NCBI RefSeq assembly: GCF_020906515.1
Contig: NC_085854.1
Location: forward strand, 992,001-1,056,000
Origin: Vanrija pseudolonga
Taxonomy: Eukaryota; Basidiomycota; Tremellomycetes; Trichosporonales; Trichosporonaceae
Reading direction: 5' to 3'
Length of the DNA: 64,000 bases
The translations under genes were made by a program, and so were the position numbers. Below the pieces are notes generated by a model that ran no database searches, was not told the DNA's origin, and saw nothing but the letters and a program-made list of their open reading frames with translations. This document shows, one piece after another, positions 8,088 to 48,440 of this stretch (position 1 is the stretch's first letter; every line of letters starts with the position of its first letter).

Positions 8088-10754
<2,667 letters not shown>

Positions 10755-17757: not shown

Positions 17758-19579
17758 GGTGACGGGCGGTGGGTGGGGAGGTGGGGAGAAGGAAGGGGGT
17801 GGTCGAGTCGGCGCGCGCGTCAAACTCTTGATGGGGTGGGTGAAAGGATGAGGATGTCGTTGGGCAACGTGTCGAGGCCCTCGGACAGATGCTGGGATGC
17901 AAGACAGGCCACTGTTACACGAGACGAATGGGTTGTTTGGTGTGTATTGAAGAGATCAAGCTAGCGCGCAATGTCCGGCGGAGCAAAGCAGCTTGGTAGT
18001 CGTAGGTCGTGCTCTCTCCGTGTGCTCGGCGGCGGCGGCGGCGGTAACTGCTGCGTGTGTCGAGAGTGGTGTGCAAATTGAGCAAGCAAGCAGGTGTAGG
18101 CTCGACTCGCACTTGCAGGTTCTGATGCTCGCTCGCACTGGTTGTTGAGGAAGGATGGGATAGGACAAGTTCGGAAAGGAGCAAGGCGAACACGAAGAGG
18201 GCTGGGTTGTGCAGGCGGGCTGGTTTGGTTGGTTGGGTTTGGCCGCCGTCAAGTCGCCTACATCCATCCCCAGTAGGACAGCCCAGGTAGCATCAGCAAG
18301 CAGCAACCAGCGGTCAGGAGGCAACTGGAAGCAAAGTGGGTGGGCTGGCCGTGTTACACCGCTGCTGGAGTGCTGCTGCTCCTGCTGCTGCCTTGCCTCC
18401 TGTCGTTGCCCACGGCAGTGTGTGTGCCCTGACACGACATCCCAACACACGGACGACGCGACTCACGGCCCCTGGCGCTACACCCAAAGTCAGGCGCGAG
18501 TGTCTGGTCGGCTGATTGGTGGGGGCACAAACGACGTCAGCTTTTGTTTGGAGACGCTGCAAGGGTCCTGGCAGCCTCGAGGGCAGAAAAGCGAAACCTA
18601 ACGGCATCGAGGCAGGGACGCACCACGACGCGCCACCGCCAATGGCCAAGGCATCACGCCCCAGGACGACCTATCCCCGGCAGAGTCATGCGCTCCAGGC
18701 TCTCGAGGAGGCCCTATGACCCTCTCGCAACGTCCCAACCCTCTGGGTGCCTTGCCTGCCCGCCCCCCCTTGCGCGTATCAGGGTCAAAAGCGACTGTCA
18801 ACCGCGAATGCTTTCTATATGCGTATTTGGGAAAAATCACAAGACCTTGTCTCGGTCGCTCCAGTGAACCTGCCTCCCTCCCCCCGCCGGCGCTCTCTTT
18901 TGCTTGGAGACGCGTTTCGAGGCTGAATCACGCACACTGTCACATCCATTCTGTACATGCAATGTAGGTTGCAAGGTCTGCCGTACAAGACGGCCATGCT
19001 CGTCCCCTTTTACGCAATGTAACTGAGTCTATGGGAACAGGTTAGACTGTTGCTAGATGGACAAGTCGAGACCGCCATGACTACGACGACGACAACCACT
19101 AGCTTGCTTGGCTTGAAGGCAGTTCCAAACACTCTATCCAGTCGCCACATGCACCCAAGCACACACGCACTCCTGGCCCCCCTTCCCCTCCTGCGGAAAC
19201 TTGACAGGCGAGGGGCGGAGTAAACAGCGCCTGGTGAACCAAAACCCAAACAGAATACCTTTGTGACCCTTTCATCTCCACAATTCTATGGCTTACCCCT
19301 AAATGATTTTGTTCCCAAGTTGCGGCCCGCTGCCGGAGGGATGCCGGGGCGGATGGGGGTGGGCCAGGTGGAGCGACCCGCAGCACCGCGCGGTGTTCAA
19401 ACACCAGGCGCCCGTCATCCGCCTAACCAAACTCCAACGGCGAGGCACAGGTGGGCTGGAGTGCGCGATCTGCGCCACCATCAAGTGTTGTGCTCTCTCT
19501 ATTGTTGTGTGACATTGGCGTAGCCCAACATGGCGACTGGGCGGTCGTTAGTGTGGCGTAAACATGCGTTGGAGCGAGG
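17758..19579. other. Long upstream region of the kinase gene
   Basis: About 1.8 kb with no supported gene. The first part upstream of 17757 is CT-rich on the coding strand, as in a leader. CTGCTG and GGCGGC runs occur near 18030 and 18365. Open frames here are short, overlap each other and lack homology. Confidence 0.5.
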
Positions 19580-20996
19580 CTAGTCAGCCACCGGGGTGTG
19601 CGAGGGAGAAAGCGGGGAGGCTGGAGCTTGATCGTGTGCTGCTCCATCTTGCGGAGCAGCAGCCTCGGCGTCGGTGTCGGCGCCGGCGGTGTGCACCGAC
19701 TTCTTAGCCACAGTCTGTGCATCGTCGTGGTCTGCGCCTCCGCCTCTCTTCTGGCCGTGCTGATGGCCTGGCTCCCCACGACTCGTCACCATGTATTCCA
19801 TGTGTTCCATCTGCCTTGGCCGCTCACCTCCGTGCCGTCAAGTCACCAAATCTCCCCCGACGGCACCTCGAAACCTTAGGACCCCAAAGCCAGGGCGTTG
19901 CCGGACGCAACACAACATCGCGACGCGTCCACCTCGGCGTCTCGACGTCACCCGCTGCTGCCGCCGCCGCCACCGGTACCGGTGCTCGCCAAAGAAGAGG
20001 ACCGAAGGTGCCTCCGGCCACCACAGCCCCTGGAACGAGCGCCAAGGCGTCCGGGCCCTGATCAAGCACCGAGCTCGTCTTTCCACTCGCGATGCAGATA
20101 TGCAGCGTAACACTTGCACGTGGCCGCCAGTACCAAGAATCCAAGGACACAGCGTCACAGGGGATGGAGGGCGGCCAAGAACAAAAGTTATCAGGCGCGA
20201 CCAAGCCATGCACTGCATCGTCGTCTGCGGCGTTGCCTGCGGGCCCCGGAACGCGTCCCGACACGCGATAGACGCAGAACGAGATCAAGGAGAATCTTCG
20301 GCGTGCCGCCGCAGTTTGTCCTGTAGGTATCAAGGTGGGCTGGTGCGAACGAGCGACCGAGGCGGCGGCGAGGGAAGTTCTGTCGCTGTATCCGGCTCGG
20401 GGGTCGCTTCGTTGCGGTCCGGCCAGTTGCCGCTCGACAACGCAGTGCGGTTGTACGGCTGCAGACGGGGACCGGCAAGACGGGGCTGCACCCTCGGCAA
20501 GCACGGCATTCAACGCGAATGAATCATGGCGTGCAGCAAGTATGACTCACGCGTGGTGCAGAGCATTCACGCCGTCTATTCACCGCTGAGCCGAGCGCCG
20601 CAGCTCCATTCACCGAGAAGAATCGGACCGCGCCGCCGCAGCGACTTCTGGCGGCGAGGATCATGGGAACGGTGGCAGGGTGCGTGCACCACCCCTGATA
20701 TGTGTACCCCATTCGCTTGCCTGGGTGCGATCAGTCAGCGAGCGCACGCCGCCCCTACGCATGCGCCATCATTCGCTAGCCTGGACAGCCACGATGCAGG
20801 ACACTGGAATAGGCGACCGCGATGGATCCGGGGGATATTGCATGCTTACTTTGACGAGCGTGACGCTAGAGTGAGCGACAGAGCGACGGAGTGAGTGACA
20901 GAGTTACAGTGGAGCGACGCCGGCGGGAATCGACGTGGCTGATTTTCATTGCGGATTTCTGTTCCACTTACCTTGATCGACGGCGAAGAGTGACAT
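19580..20996 (-). CDS. Possible multi-exon gene of unknown function (structure unresolved)
   Basis: The coding-like signal is on the minus strand. At 20996 an ATG opens MSLFAVDQ, followed at once by a strong donor GTAAGT. At 19580 a frame ends in a hydrophilic tail, AGADTDAEAAAPQDGAAHD...PSHTPVAD, with a codon pattern like neighbouring genes. Between them a 230-codon open frame (19824-20513) exists, but its third-position bias is weaker, and I could not join the pieces with credible splice sites. I do not recognise any domain. Both ends may belong to one gene, to two genes, or be chance. Confidence 0.22.
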
Positions 20997-21075
20997 CGTG
21001 ACAAAGTCCCTACAGGCTCAGTGTGACCGCCGCCGCCCCGCCTCCGCCGGGGGCGAGGGCGTGCTGGCGCTGCTT

Positions 21076-21600
21076 CTACTTCCTGGCGCCATGCGAACGA
21101 ACGGGTAAGCATTCCAGGACCTTGCCGGTGCGGTGGTCGGTCGAGGGCGAGTCGAATGCAATGGTGTCACCTGGCGAATGTGGCGAGGTACGGTACCAAT
21201 GTGGCGATCTGCCCAGTGAGTAACCTCCGAGCATGCTCATGTCGATCAGGCTGGTCTCGGCCTGTGACTCATTGTCGTGTCACTCTGGTAGACCAGACGT
21301 GTGTATGGAACACCTGTCCGCGCCGGTGGGTAGGGTGCAGTGGTGCGAGAGGCCCAAGCGGCGTTGGCGAGCAGCGTCGGTTGTATGTAAAGATGCGATT
21401 GACTTCTCACCTTTGTGCACTCACGCACCTCATCCGAGCAGTCTCCGACGAGCCGAGGAGAAGCGCGTAGACCACGAGCAATGTGGCACCGTTGTCAGTG
21501 CCACAGAAGCATTGCGCCCTCGGTGCCGATCCAGAGTGTGCCCACGCCGACGCCCATGTCGACACTCTCCTGCACAGCCAAAGGACGCCGTCGTCGGCCT
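21076..21600 (-). CDS. Possible small gene of unknown function, C-terminal exon best supported
   Basis: A frame ending in TAG at 21076-21078 reads GDTIAFDSPSTDHRTGKVLE and then a short basic tail, with good third-position GC bias. Upstream on the same strand, a segment near 21430-21480 encodes a hydrophobic run ATLLVVYALLLGSSETARMR ending at a GTGCGT donor. One reading is a small membrane protein with several exons, but intermediate exons are ambiguous and no start can be fixed. No family is recognised. Confidence 0.2.
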
Positions 21601-21660: not shown

Positions 21661-22078
21661 ATGCCGCCAGTCCGCCCACCCCCCTCGCCAAAGAGCAAGC
21701 CTTACAGCCCAAAGGCCAGCAGAACGCCGAAGCCCGGCCCCCGCCCCTCCCTCCGCGCGTCCGACTCGGCGCCGACCGACCTCGCACCGTCGGGGAAGCG
21801 CTGGACGGGGGAAGAGTACGTCGCGCTCTTCGACCACGTCGCGGTGCACGGCGCGGCCAAGTTTGAGGCCGCCGTCCCTGGCCGAACGAAGAACCAGTGC
21901 TATCAGGCGTTCAAGTGGGTCGCCCGGGCGGTTGGGGGGGAGCGGGGACGAAGGCTGACGAAGGACGTCCAGGTGCACTGTCGCGCCGATGTGCCGCGCC
22001 ATGCTGGCTGCCAAGGGGGAGGAGAAGGGCAAGGCGGCGGCCCAACCGGCCGGCAAGGTCGTCAAGGAGGAGGCGTAA
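21661..22078 (+). CDS. Small Myb/SANT-like protein, array copy 1
   Basis: Exons 21661-21914 and 21973-22078 (58-nt intron) give 119 aa. A Pro/Ser/Lys-rich N-terminus starts with MPPVRPPPSPK. The single Myb-like domain runs from WTGEEYVALFDHVAVHG to VPGRTKNQCYQAF. The spliced tail reads KCTVAPMCRAMLAAKGEEK and ends VVKEEA. A lone Myb/SANT repeat of about 50 residues normally binds DNA or histone tails. Here there is no other domain, so the role is unknown. The splice choice is supported by the same APxCRxxLAAK tail in copies 3, 4 and 5. The copy looks intact. Confidence 0.85.
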
Positions 22079-22464
22079 AGTGTAAGTGCCGGTGGTTAAC
22101 CCTCTGACGCGAGCCGTAGGGAGAGCCTCAGGCATACCACCCCACCAGCATCCGTTCTGCTCGTCATGTCTCTGTCCATCCTCGTCATACATTGTCACAC
22201 CACAGTCGCCTCGTCGACATCATCATACAGTGAGCTCCTCCTCTAGTGTTGACTAACGCTCAGATACCACCCCCGTGCTCCCCTCTGTCACGGCCGCATG
22301 GCTGAGGTCATGTCTTTCACAGCAGATCCGAGGCGCCTCGACGCCCTTGTGCCCATATCCCATGCGCATGCAAGTGTCCACGCCTCTGCGCGCCTGATGA
22401 GAAGGAATATCCCACGCTCAACTGGCAGGTCCGTGTCTCTCAACACCACACCCACGCACTCACA

Positions 22465-22806
22465 ATGCCGCCAACCCGCACCCCGCATCAGCACCCAGAC
22501 AAGAAGCCCTACCCCGCCGCGGCGGCCTCGGCCCCGCCCACCCACCAAGCCAAGTCCGAGCCCAAGGCCCGCGCGTGGACGGGCGACGAGTACGTCGCCC
22601 TCTTCACCTTCGTCGTGGAGCACGGGTGCAGCAAGACGTCCATCGGCGAGGCAGTGCCCGGGCGTACGGCGAACCAAAGCTATCTCGCGTTCAAGTGGGT
22701 CACTGTGTCGGCGCGGCGCTCGCTGACGCGGAGGAGGATCGTGCTGCCCAAGTGTCTTGCGGCGCCGTCGAAGGGCGGCGGGGAGAGGGTCAAGAGTGAG
22801 AAGTAG
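22465..22806 (+). CDS. Small Myb/SANT-like protein, array copy 2
   Basis: Exons 22465-22694 and 22734-22806 with a 39-nt intron (CTGAC branch, acceptor GCGGAG) give 100 aa. The domain reads WTGDEYVALFTFVVEHG and then VPGRTANQSYLAF. The tail differs from its neighbours: KRIVLPKCLAAPSKGGGERV, then KSEK. Because the intron length is a multiple of three and has no stop, an unspliced message would still encode a protein of 113 aa. The start MPPTRTPHQ follows the family leader CACTCACAATGCCGCC. Confidence 0.82.
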   Translation: MPPTRTPHQHPDKKPYPAAAASAPPTHQAKSEPKARAWTGDEYVALFTFVVEHGCSKTSIGEAVPGRTANQSYLAFKWVTVSARRSLTRRRIVLPKCLAAPSKGGGERVKSEK

Positions 22807-23045
22807 GGTGTCGCGGCGTCGTATGCCCTCTGCACGTCGGGGGTCGTGGTGGCGGTGATGACCTCTACATTGCAAGTCCCAGCGCCCTGCTCGTGCTCCT
22901 ATACCAATGCACACTTTCCAGACGCCCGTGAATCCTGTGCCCTGTATCAGCCCTCCAGAGCCAACAGCACAGGGGAACAATGACTCATGACTCCAAACCA
23001 ACTCTTGCCATCAGACTCTTCACGACCACCGCCACACTCACCACA

Positions 23046-23385
23046 ATGCCGCCGACCCGTCACCCCAGCTCCCCGTCTCTCGAGGTCGAGCCCTACGCGG
23101 CCCCCGCGGAGCCGTCACGCGCGAGCAAGACCCCCGCCACCACGGCAGGCAACAAGGACAAGCGCCCGTGGACGGCAGCCGAGTACCTCGCGCTCTTCGA
23201 GCACGTCACCAAGCACGGCGCGACGCGCTTCGAGGACGCGGTCCCCGGCCGTACCAGGAACCAGTGCTACAAGGCCTTCACGTGGGTGTCGATACAACAG
23301 AGGCTGGGCTGACGGGTGGGTGGGCAGGCAGACAGTTGGGCCTATTTGCCGCACGGCGCTCGCTGCGGCCAAGGGAGGCAAGTGA
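23046..23385 (+). CDS. Small Myb/SANT-like protein, array copy 3
   Basis: Exons 23046-23281 and 23328-23385 (46-nt intron) give 97 aa. The N-terminus MPPTRHPSSPSLEVEPYAAP is close to copy 4. The domain reads WTAAEYLALFEHVTKHG and VPGRTRNQCYKAF, and the tail TQTVGPICRTALAAAKGGK. Without splicing the frame stops within ten codons of the donor, so splicing is required for the shared tail. The chosen acceptor (GGTGGGCAG at 23327) keeps the CR-x-ALAA motif in frame. Confidence 0.84.
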
Positions 23386-23650
23386 GGAGGAGCAGGTCGA
23401 GAGCGAGTGGCGTCGTTGTTGTAGCTCTCCCCCTCTGCCGCCCGGCCTGGGCTTGTCGCGCCCCCGTGCGATCAGACCTCACCTCAGTGCTCATTTCAGT
23501 ACCCCAGTGCCGATGCACGTATCCAAAACCGACGAGACGCTGTACGCCCCGCACCCCCACACATCTTGACGTCTCGCGTAAGATGACACCATGTCAGCAT
23601 TTCTGAACCTCGTCGTTCTCCATCAACTGACAACCGCCACATTACTCACA

Positions 23651-24051
23651 ATGCCACCGACCCGTCCCCTCAGCTCCCCCTCGCTCGACATCAAGCCCTA
23701 CATCGTGCCGGAGGGCACCCGATCCCCGGCCCCAGAGAAGACGACCGACACGGCGGCGTCCAAGCGCGGCCGCGGCACCGCCTGGAGCGGACCCGAGTAC
23801 ATCGCGCTCTTCGACCACGCGATCAAGCACGGCGCAGGCACGTTCGACGGCGTCGTGCCCGGCCGCACCAAGAGCCAGTGCTACAAGACGATCATGTGCG
23901 TCCGAGTAAGCTCGAGGGTGGTCAGTCACTGACACACCATTGTAGGGCGACGGTGGCCCCCATGTGCCGCGCGGTGCTGGCTGCCAAGGGGGGTGAGAAG
24001 AAGAAGTGGTGCGTGTCGGTGTGTGTGGCGAGCCCAGCTGACACGATTTGA
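23651..24051 (+). CDS. Small Myb/SANT-like protein, array copy 4
   Basis: Exons 23651-23895 and 23946-24051 (50-nt intron) give 116 aa. The domain reads WSGPEYIALFDHAIKHG and VPGRTKSQCYKTI, and the tail MATVAPMCRAVLAAKGGEKK. An in-frame ATG at 23591 would add 20 residues; I prefer 23651 because MPPTRPLSSPSL matches copy 3. The last residues (after GGEKKK) have no counterpart in other copies. A second intron with donor GTGCGT at 24009 and acceptor at 24053 would rebuild a TGA directly after KKK, giving the tail length seen in the other copies (see findings). Confidence 0.8.
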
Positions 24052-24436
24052 AGACGGCTGGACGTCGCGCCGAGTGCCGCATCGACTATCGTGACCGAGA
24101 CCATTGCTCTACCTGCACCATGTCGCTGTATCCATCCCTGCACCCCCCTAGCCTACTGTACGGCGCAAGTAGTCACGGCCGGCGGCGACGGCTGATGCGA
24201 CAAGTGCCGCGTCGTGTCGTCAGACCTCGAGTCAGCGCCCCTCAGTACTTCATTATCGATGCACCCTCAAGTAACCGTGTGCAAAGCCGAGCCCTGTCGC
24301 CGTCTTCCACTTAGCTTCTAATGGCATCAGACGCTGCATCCCAGACCCGGCATCATCCTCTTCGGCCACAAAACCCACACCACCGCGGCTCACCACCCGC
24401 CTCCCCTCCCCTTCTCAACACACCCAGTCACGCACA

Positions 24437-24719
24437 ATGCCGCCCACCCGCCCGCACGACAAGCCCTCTGACCCCGCCCCCAGCGCCAAGCCCCGCGGGT
24501 GGACAAGCGACGAGTATCTCGCCCTCTTCGACCACGTCGCGCGCCACGGCCCAACGAGGCTCGAGGACGCGGTGCCGGGCCGGACCAAGAACCAGAGCTA
24601 CCAGGCGTTTGTGTGGGTCACGGGCTGCCTGGGGTGGGCTGACGTGCAGTAAGGTCGTCGCGCCGACTTGTCGCGCTGCGCTGGCTGCCAAGGGCGGCGG
24701 CAAGGTCAAGTCGGAGTAG
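24437..24719 (+). CDS. Small Myb/SANT-like protein, array copy 5
   Basis: Exons 24437-24612 and 24650-24719 (37-nt intron) give 81 aa, the shortest member. The linker between MPPTRPHDKP and the domain is reduced to about 18 residues. The domain reads WTSDEYLALFDHVARHG and VPGRTKNQSYQAF, and the tail VKVVAPTCRAALAAKGGGK then VKSE. Its unspliced frame stops at the intron end. Intact. Confidence 0.84.
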
Positions 24720-24979
24720 TAGGTGGTGCCACTTGCCACCACCACCGCTGGCGGCGCCACCTCCGTCCTGTCCCGCACCGCCGTCGATGGCACGTCCCGT
24801 CTTGAGATCGAGTCGATGGCCGTAGATGATGTTGTGCGTCATGTCGTCACACTCGACGCCCAGTAGTCGATGCACACAATCCACACGCCCCGTCCCTGCT
24901 GCGTCCATCTACCTCTCCTCATCAGTCTTCTCCTCTCTTCTCTTCACTGCTCAACAAACCACGACCAACGACCACAGCA

Positions 24980-25356
24980 ATGCCACCTAAGCGTCCCGTC
25001 CCCTCCTACGCCGTCGCCGACGACCTCGAACGCAAGCCCAACGAGGACGAGCTCGGCGCCACCTCCTCCCCACCGCCCACCAAGCGCCCCAAGGCCTCGC
25101 CCAAGCCCAAGTCGAGCTACGGCGGCGAGCAGAAGGGCGCATGGACCCCCGCCGAGCTCCTGCAGCTCTACCACCACGTCACGATGCACGGCAAGACGCG
25201 CTGGGAGAGCGCCGTGCCCGGCCGGAGCGCACAGCAGGCGCGCGAGACTTGGTGCGTGGGGGTTGGGGGCGGGGCGGGGCTGACGGTCGCAGGGGTAGGC
25301 GGCTGGATGGGATCCTCACCAAGGCTATCGCTGGGCTTGGGGGCAAGGCTGCATAG
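24980..25356 (+). CDS. Small Myb/SANT-like protein, array copy 6 (divergent)
   Basis: Exons 24980-25251 and 25293-25356 (41-nt intron) give 111 aa. The N-terminus is longer, with a basic stretch PTKRPKASPKPK that could be a nuclear localisation signal. The domain WTPAELLQLYHHVTMHG with TRWESAVPGRSAQQARETW keeps a Trp in helix 2 and a final Trp in helix 3, so it is closer to canonical Myb repeats than copies 1-5. The tail GRRLDGILTKAIAGLGGKAA lacks the APxCR motif. Confidence 0.82.
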
Positions 25357-25699
25357 GACTCGTAGGACGTAGCGGCAGTGCTGGTGGCTGGAGGCCGATG
25401 CATTGCTCTGCTCCGTACGAGTCGGTGGCGGCGAGTGGCACTCCGGCCGTGCGTGGCGCCGAATCTGCGCCACCATCCACGGCCGTCAGTCGCACATATC
25501 TGATGTGCTCGCACCAGACGGACAGGATGGCGCCGCAGACGGACGCAGGCTCGCCGTCGAGTTGTCGCCCGAGCCGAGCCCATCCACACACTGACGCCCT
25601 GCGGCCGACCCAGCACGCCCGCCCCCGACAATGTATCCACCCTCCCGCACCTCAGCACCCTTCTCACCCTCGCCCACTAACCACCACCTCACCACCACC

Positions 25700-26050
25700 A
25701 TGCCGCGCACCCCCTCGTTGGACGGCGAGATCAAGCCTTCTTCCAAGCCGTACGACCGCAAGCCCACACCCAAGATCCCCAAGGCCGAAGGCAAGCCCAA
25801 GCCCGAGCCCACGGCCGCGGCGCCCTCCGCGTGGACGCCCGCCGAGTGCCTCGCCCTCTTTGACCACGTCAAGCGCGTCGGCGAGCGCCAGTGGGAGGAC
25901 GCGGTGCCCGGCCGCAGTGGCCCGGTGTCGCGCAAGGCTTGGTGCGTACGTCGTCAGCTCGTCGCGCTGACGAGCAGGAAGAACCGCGTCGAGCCCTTCA
26001 TCCGCAAGGCGCTCGCGAGCAAGAACGGCGCCAGCACCGCCGACAAGTAG
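25700..26050 (+). CDS. Small Myb/SANT-like protein, array copy 7 (divergent)
   Basis: Exons 25700-25941 and 25978-26050 (36-nt intron) give 104 aa. An in-frame ATG at 25631 would add 23 residues; 25700 fits the family start (MPRTPSLDGEIKPSSKPY). The domain reads WTPAECLALFDHVKRVG, RQWEDAVPGRSGPVSRKAW, with the terminal Trp also present in copy 6. The tail KNRVEPFIRKALASKNGAS resembles that of copy 6. The stop is 122 bp from the end of the convergent ING gene. Confidence 0.82.
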   Translation: MPRTPSLDGEIKPSSKPYDRKPTPKIPKAEGKPKPEPTAAAPSAWTPAECLALFDHVKRVGERQWEDAVPGRSGPVSRKAWCVRRQLVALTSRKNRVEPFIRKALASKNGASTADK

Positions 26051-26172: not shown

Positions 26173-27886
26173 CTACTTGCGCTTCGGCTTGGCAGGCTTC
26201 TTCGCCTTGGGGTTGCGCTTGCGCCGCTCAAGACACTGCGGGCAGATCCAGTTGCCCTCTGGCGCCTTGTCGAGGTTGAGACACGCGACGTGGTACTGGG
26301 GGGTGTTAGCGGGTGCCTCGTCGCTAGAGTGCGCGCGACAGTCGCAAGCACGACCGTCGCGCACACTCGCTTGGCTCGTGTGCTTACCCATTCAATCTCG
26401 CACTCGTCATCGTCACACCCAATCATCTCGCCGTAGCTAAACTGCCGACACGTGCAGTACACCTTCGAGTCGACCTCTGCATCGCCCGCGCCGTTGTCGG
26501 TATCCGCGACCGTGGACTCGGCGTACGACGTCGCCGCGCTCTTCTTGGCTGACGCGGCGGCAGCACCGGGCCGCTTGGCGGGCGGCTCCTCGTCCTGGTC
26601 CTCGTCGTCCTCTTCGTCCTCCTCGTCTCCGCGCGCGCGCTTCGTGCCACGCCCACCAGCACGCGCACGCTTGTCCCCGCCAGACTGCTGTGCCGGTGTC
26701 GTGCCTCCGCTCTTGCCGGCCGAGCCCTCGCGCGAGCCCAGGTCGATGCCCAGCGCGCCGCCGGCCGCCGTCGAGTCGTTGGACGCAGACACCTGCATCG
26801 CCTTGCCGCCGCGCCGCGGCTCGTCGTCGCCCGACTCGTCCGAGTCCTCGTCCTTCTTCTGCGCGGCACGTGCCTTGGCCGCCGCGGCGGCGATCTGACG
26901 CGCCGTCCGTGCAACCGGCTCGCTTGGCTTGCCGTACACTGCAGTCGACGCGACCGACTCTGATGGCGACACTGCGCGGTTCGTCCTGCACTCATCAGCA
27001 CCGGCCACCACACGCGCACCACACCCAACCCACTTCTTCTTTCTCACTGGCGCCTTCTTCTTCTCGTCACGCCCGTTGACGCTCGACGCGTCGTCGTCGT
27101 CAACCCGCCCAACCTCCTTGCGGTTCTTGCGCTTCTTGGTCGGCGTCGCGCGATCGTCATGTCGGCCAGGGAACGGCGAGCCCGTCGCTCTTGTCTGGCC
27201 GCGTCTTGTTGCCGCCGCAACAGGCTGCTGGGGAAGCGTAAGCGCCGCGGTGTACGGCGAAGGCGGGTCCTTTTCCAGCAGCGTAGAGTGCTTGAGCAGG
27301 TTGGAGATATGACGCTGGTGAGCCATGATCTGGACATGTCAGCGGCGCATCCACCCTCCTGTAGCAACTTACACCATCACACGCGCCGCCAGCGACGCGG
27401 ATCTTGTCGTCGCCGCCGAGCTTGTATCTCGCGGCTTCCTCGGCAATCTCCTGCAGGAGCTGGAAGCGCTGCTCCGGCCCGACTCTGGGGCTCTGCACCC
27501 AGTCGATGAGCTGGTGGAGCTTGCGCTCGAGGTTGCAGAGAGTGGCTGGGGGAGTCAGCGATGGCGTTCGGCGGCGGATGGCGCGGTGTGGTCCTCCGGT
27601 GGATCAAGCTGGCTGGCTGACAGCGGCCTGCCAGCCAAGCCCCCTCCACCGCTCCGCCCCGCTTGATCCCACAAACAAACTCACAGTACAAAACAGCACC
27701 CAGCTCGTTCAAGTCGCTATGGACGCGGGTGAGCTCGGTCGGGATCTGGTCGATCGTGTCCATAAAGTCCTGGATGACGAGGATGTCGTTCTGCTCAGTG
27801 TGGGCCGACGCCGCGGCCGACACGACGGGCGGTAACGGCGGCGGCGTGGGGGACAGCGGCCGCGCGATCGCAGCCTTGGGTGGCAT
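26173..27886 (-). CDS. ING-family protein with C-terminal PHD finger
   Basis: Five exons, 27685-27886, 27373-27545, 27025-27329, 26388-26985 and 26173-26295, give 466 aa. The N-terminal ING helices (about 25-130) include FMDTIDQIPTEL and LNELGAV. The C-terminal PHD finger reads YCTCRQFSYGEMIGCDDDEC, then EIEWYHVACLNLDKAPEGNW and ICPQC, with a complete Cys4-His-Cys3 set. ING/Yng2/Pho23 proteins read H3K4 methylation and anchor histone acetyltransferase or deacetylase complexes in the nucleus. A long acidic and Lys/Arg-rich linker with KKRKNRKE separates the two domains, and the tail RKRNPKAKKPAKPKRK is a polybasic region as in ING1/2. Which complex it belongs to (NuA4, NuA3 or Rpd3) cannot be decided from the sequence. 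Introns are 139, 43, 39 and 92 nt. Confidence 0.92.
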
Positions 27887-48354: not shown

Positions 48355-48440
48355 GGGCGTGTAGCTCAGTTGGTAGAGCGTTTCATTCGCATATTCTGCG
48401 AGACTTGAAAAGGTCTTTGGTTCGATTCCTAACTCGTCCA
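48355..48440 (+). tRNA. tRNA-Ala(CGC) with an intron
   Basis: The A box TAGCTCAGTTGG and B box GGTTCGATTCC are intact. The D stem GCTC/GAGC is perfect and the anticodon stem is TTTCA/TGAAA. The loop reads TT-CGC-A followed by an intron of about 13 nt whose TGCGA can pair with TCGCA around the anticodon, the usual bulge-helix-bulge arrangement. The acceptor stem has G3-U70 and discriminator A73, the alanine identity elements. Odd points are a U6-U67 mismatch in the acceptor stem and a U51-U63 mismatch in the T stem. An oligo-T terminator follows. It would decode GCG, a common codon in this GC-rich genome. Confidence 0.78.

Follow-up and report, generated by a model that had tools for sequence, protein, structure and literature searches.

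A tandem array of seven genes for small proteins with an atypical Myb domain in Vanrija pseudolonga

Seven small genes encoding proteins with an unusual Myb domain form a tandem array in the basidiomycete Vanrija pseudolonga. They lie within a 64,000-nucleotide stretch of contig C6 (NC_085854.1, positions 992,001 to 1,056,000), referred to here as the window. The first-pass annotation of this DNA had reported seven intact same-strand genes at 21661-26050, and its coordinates, strand, sizes and motifs all proved correct. The array is a real, poorly annotated tandem family built on a variant Myb domain, and not a new kind of system. C6 (2,608,619 bp) is one of nine contigs in the 24.87-Mb genome, and the array occupies an internal position at about 1.01 of 2.6 Mb. 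The genes, named m1 to m7, are 239-386 nt apart. A single open-frame piece of m5 (61 aa) recovers the other six copies from the 24.87-Mb genome with E values of 2.8e-18 to 3.2e-7; judged by sequence comparison, the similarity within the array is beyond chance. A tblastn search with the seven proteins found no extra copy or relic in the window outside the array (best outside E value 0.076).

Each gene consists of two exons separated by one GT..AG intron of 36-58 nt in phase 2 (7/7), in which the motif CTGAC begins 11-19 nt upstream of the intron end. Read against the alignment, the intron falls within the codon of the third core W in m6 and m7, and one codon further on in m1-m5. In m1-m4, the joining of exon 2 was inferred by homology. 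The genes and the neighbouring chromatin gene are as follows.

m1: 21661..22078, plus strand; exon 1 21661-21914, intron 21915-21972, exon 2 21973-22078; 119 aa; F-type Myb
m2: 22465..22806, plus strand; exons 22465-22694 and 22734-22806, intron 22695-22733; 100 aa; loop with two extra residues
m3: 23046..23385, plus strand; exons 23046-23281 and 23328-23385, intron 23282-23327; 97 aa
m4: 23651..24051, plus strand; exons 23651-23895 and 23946-24051, intron 23896-23945; 116 aa; end of exon 2 uncertain
m5: 24437..24719, plus strand; exons 24437-24612 and 24650-24719, intron 24613-24649; 81 aa
m6: 24980..25356, plus strand; exons 24980-25251 and 25293-25356, intron 25252-25292; 111 aa; W-type, with a V. 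albida orthologue
m7: 25700..26050, plus strand; exons 25700-25941 and 25978-26050, intron 25942-25977; 104 aa; W-type
ING-type PHD chromatin gene: 26173..27886, minus strand; 463 aa, manually spliced; synteny anchor

Public annotation conceals this tandem family through the fusion of copies. Spliced m6 and m7 are letter-for-letter identical to LOC62_06G008185 and LOC62_06G008186, respectively (the P0001/P0002 pair of records). LOC62_06G008184 (P0014, 218 aa; window 23046-24719) is a fusion of three genes, which begins with exon 1 of m3, carries m4 in the middle and ends in a C-terminus identical to that of m5. Similarly, V. albida Q8F55_006519 merges two copies. Two profile searches yielded no separate protein record for m1 or m2, the latter appearing only as the unspliced window open reading frame (ORF) P0003. 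These searches returned 13 and 14 proteins, 19 of them distinct. With P0001, P0002, P0003 and P0014 excluded as window duplicates, 25 domain rows were compared: seven from the window, three from V. albida, three from a close relative (13,938-bp contig), two from Cryptotrichosporon argae, three from Kwoniella, five others and two repeats of a paralogue on contig C7. This two-repeat paralogue (about 1466000-1467080, minus strand; L028:4984-6079) has a long, charged N-terminus, and its last exon is in frame only after removal of a 16-nt GT..AG stretch, so that the gene has an ultra-short intron or else its end is broken.

Canonical Myb repeats consist of three helices with the spacing W-x18/19-W-x18/19-W. 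The array domain is atypical in that helix 2 lacks about three residues, and its second spacing does not match the canonical one, since core positions 2 and 3 are separated as W-x15-W in all 16 W-type domains. The turn R lies seven positions past core position 2, versus 9-11 in Myb controls from the same genome (8 readable of 12). AlphaFold models predict a helix 2 cut to one turn, with three residues in m7 and in the segments of P0014 that come from m3 and m5, and none in its m4 segment. The m1-m5 clade further departs from c-Myb R2, the SNAPC4 repeats and PF00249 in having F, I or L among its core residues. Shared with these canonical domains are the W(T/S)xxE of helix 1, the VPGR(T/S) turn, the helix-3 Q and W/F, and a linker-like xxLxP segment after helix 3; profile matches and superposition agree. 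A seven-copy profile matched solved c-Myb chains at 5.7e-10 and SNAPC4 at 4.9e-8 (whole chains), and single Myb repeats at 3.1e-4 for the best shown. With Pfam PF00249 (cut-off 24.4 bits), m6 (25.1), C. argae P0007 (24.5), the fused P0014 (42.5) and P0015 (31.9) scored above the threshold; m7, P0005, P0006, P0008 and P0010 fell below it, as did all seven unspliced window pieces, with no hit for m4. The telobox (TRF/Teb) type, defined by a VDxKDKWR-like motif in helix 3, was considered and rejected, as none of the 25 domains matched one loose pattern. Separately, the window contains a CDC5/Cef1-type splicing-factor Myb gene with ordinary Myb spacing at 8493-10754.

The earlier description of the proteins as almost nothing but one Myb domain holds for the folded part; beyond it, every copy carries a tail of 21-54 aa that is basic and rich in proline. 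The tails start with MP in 23/23 proteins, and KPY occurs in 15 of the 23 and some form of xPY in 19, the tails without it being those of m5, m6, Va_m6 and J19. In m7 and m3, the two copies whose tails were modelled whole, low prediction confidence indicates that the tail is probably disordered. Both the Myb domain and the tail are basic, and no other domain was found.

In a tree based on 58 columns, in which 6 of 22 inner branches were strongly supported, m1-m5 grouped with Va_a and Va_b of V. albida and Lo_A and Lo_B of the close relative (96/98), m6 with Va_m6 (97/93) and m7 with Lo_C (98/92). The m1-m5 clade was found only in Vanrija and the close relative, and it is older than the V. albida split because Va_a and Va_b belong to it. 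The Myb domain of m6 is 93% identical to that of Va_m6, versus 62-65% for m2/Va_a and m3/Va_b; therefore, m6 is the type conserved between V. pseudolonga and V. albida. Identity to the close relative reaches 97% for m7, 92% for m3 (Lo_A) and 69% for m4. The tails diverge despite the conserved domain, with 37% identity for m6 and 63% for m7. Lo_A is a chimera combining an m2-like tail (81%, next best 41%) with an m3-like Myb domain. Such a pattern is as expected from unequal crossing-over or conversion between neighbours, and the recombinant may be in either species. At the three helix-3 positions that correspond to contacts of c-Myb R2, the array has seven different residue triplets, with the same triplet in m3/Va_b and in m6/Va_m6. 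As a sign of copy-specific targets, these triplets are only suggestive, because exposed positions next to them are equally variable and some of the triplets also turn up in C. argae and Kwoniella.

The first-pass annotation had taken the tandem amplification and the open frames as signs of selection for dose or diversity. Frames are indeed kept, with purifying selection across the array, but its suggestions of dose selection and of a role in mating, nutrient regulation, transposon control or conflict gained no support. Under a codon model (F3x4), the ratio of nonsynonymous to synonymous substitution rates (dN/dS, omega) for the whole array domain was 0.044, and omega=1 was rejected (twice the log-likelihood difference, 2dlnL, 128.7). 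The array domain as a whole is under purifying selection. On terminal branches, omega=1 was rejected for m5 (2dlnL 22.5), m6 (7.0) and m7 (5.65) and not for m1 (0.2), m2 (2.15), m3 (0.59) or m4 (0.29). Pairwise NG86 estimates over 56 domain codons gave omega of 0.27-0.53 in 10/10 m1-m5 pairs and 0.71-1.43 in the 11 pairs involving m6 or m7 (dS 0.63-1.09).

These values bear on a different account of the array, in which m6 and m7 form the functional core and m1-m5 are drifting tandem duplicates heading towards pseudogenes. It would explain why m4 has I in place of the helix-3 core W and a branch favouring a higher omega than the rest (2dlnL 4.65), why the second core position of m2 is I and its C-terminal segment contains a proline, and why Lo_B has a loop two residues shorter and MEGR instead of VPGR. 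The absence of m1-m5 as separate genes in public records also fits. Nevertheless, open frames and splice signals are retained in 5/5 of m1-m5, all ten pairs have low omega, the m5 branch rejects omega=1, and the Lo_A domain remains 92% identical to m3. In neutral resampling, the chance of all five staying open was about 0.004, 5e-4 and 8e-5 (fractions 0.2, 0.3 and 0.4), these being products of per-copy values assumed independent. We regard decay of m1-m5 as somewhat doubtful.

Relatives of the array proteins occur in two Trichosporonales genera and in Kwoniella. The small Myb-like proteins of Kwoniella and C. argae share the MPR start, a PY(D/S)R-type tail motif and the short-helix-2 Myb domain with the array; they differ in number, with one match in each of three Kwoniella and two adjacent genes (consecutive locus tags) in C. 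argae, and none falls within the m1-m5 clade. Copy number is seven here, at least three in V. albida, at least three in the close relative, at least two in C. argae and at least one in each of the three Kwoniella, the relatives' values being lower bounds drawn from protein records. The same fixed copy number in every relative, a counter-case raised in the first-pass annotation, is not what these differing counts (7/3/3/2/1) indicate, within that limit.

The ING-type PHD gene adjoining the array offers a view of the history of the locus. Linkage was read in Vanrija, the close relative and three Kwoniella; ING records of V. albida and C. argae were not listed. In the close relative, ING (P0043) and Myb proteins (P0004, P0011 and P0017) are on contigs equally long (13,938 bp). 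Contigs of equal length also carry the ING and Myb genes of the three Kwoniella, at distances of 13, 27 and 7 locus tags. The three Kwoniella are related to each other, so their linkage does not represent three independent events. Because Myb genes lie beside or near the same ING gene in Vanrija and these Kwoniella, the locus looks old. Another possibility is that the proteins are SANT-like protein-interaction modules rather than DNA-binding ones, serving as subunits or adaptors of chromatin complexes, perhaps with the neighbouring ING protein. We consider this unlikely: the histone-binding SANT surface is acidic, in contrast to the basic domain and tail found here, and linkage need not imply shared function, the Kwoniella genes being 7-27 tags apart.

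The linkage also makes a recently acquired selfish element unlikely. One clade has diverged fast and been reshuffled, which could suggest that the array derives from a mobile element with a Myb/SANT-like protein, or protects against one. Such an origin or arms race appears very improbable, given a single internal C6 locus plus one C7 gene, the ING linkage in relatives, and the absence of any relative in viral contigs (one pattern searched). No homeodomain, pheromone receptor or transposase occurred among 10 large window ORFs scanned (6 with a Pfam match; part of the window genes). No Harbinger/trihelix Myb-SANT Pfam model was listed at E values up to 10 or 1, a search that distant members can escape. 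Moreover, the longest direct-repeat families, D1-D4, fall within the array genes themselves.

The reading we prefer, about as apt to prove right as wrong, is that the array encodes small nuclear proteins that bind DNA or chromatin, have no effector domain and serve as competitors or adaptors, the m1-m5 set having diversified through duplication and through exchange among neighbouring copies. The locus would be inherited vertically, with unequal crossing-over or conversion between neighbours producing and reshuffling the copies. Because both parts are basic and no other domain was found, the proteins may reside in the nucleus, contact DNA or chromatin by means of the basic domain and long helix 3, and act by occupying sites or partners, and copy-specific helix-3 residues might direct them to different targets. 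Plant single-repeat R3-MYBs (CPC, TRY, ETC, TCL) act in this way. In the account given in PMC3986520, these inhibitors are below 120 aa with little beyond one Myb repeat and number seven in Arabidopsis, where ETC2 and TCL2 are tandem neighbours with chimeric transcripts; in size, single repeat, number and chimerism between neighbours they resemble the array. In contrast, the basic helix-loop-helix (bHLH)-binding signature [D/E]Lx2[R/K]x3Lx6Lx3R occurs in 0/23 array-family proteins, the repeat spacing differs, and the chimerism described here concerns a relative's gene and not transcripts. Plant R3-MYBs would thus be an analogue in mode of action, not relatives of the family.

Several observations temper the preferred reading. 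The near-identical Myb domain of m7 was seen in a single close relative, and copy numbers in relatives are only lower bounds. Eight further Kwoniella, Cutaneotrichosporon, Cryptococcus and other Tremellales have an ING record with no Myb match seen, where loss and low search sensitivity cannot be told apart; of the 11 Kwoniella with ING records, no more than 3 gave a Myb match.

Elsewhere in the window, a stretch of approximately 3.8 kb (17800-21600) separates m1 from a protein kinase gene; no clear gene and no relic copy was recognised in it, its ORFs not having been homology-searched. A tRNA gene at 48355-48440 was matched by Rfam and missed by ARAGORN (bacterial settings), perhaps through an intron.

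A bolder scenario, which we hold to be distinctly unlikely, is that a Tremellomycete lineage lost most of Myb helix 2 and kept a working recognition helix, and that this minimal two-helix module was amplified in Vanrija into a recombining tandem set with swapped tails and Myb domains. Such a set would serve as a diversifying store of specificities for DNA or chromatin targets. Should the short-helix-2 Myb bind DNA, it would show how far the helix-turn-helix can be reduced within a Myb fold. In that case, the array would be a compact natural experiment in which tandem duplication and exchange lead to new DNA-binding specificities, with the conserved reference copy m6 standing beside fast-changing copies.
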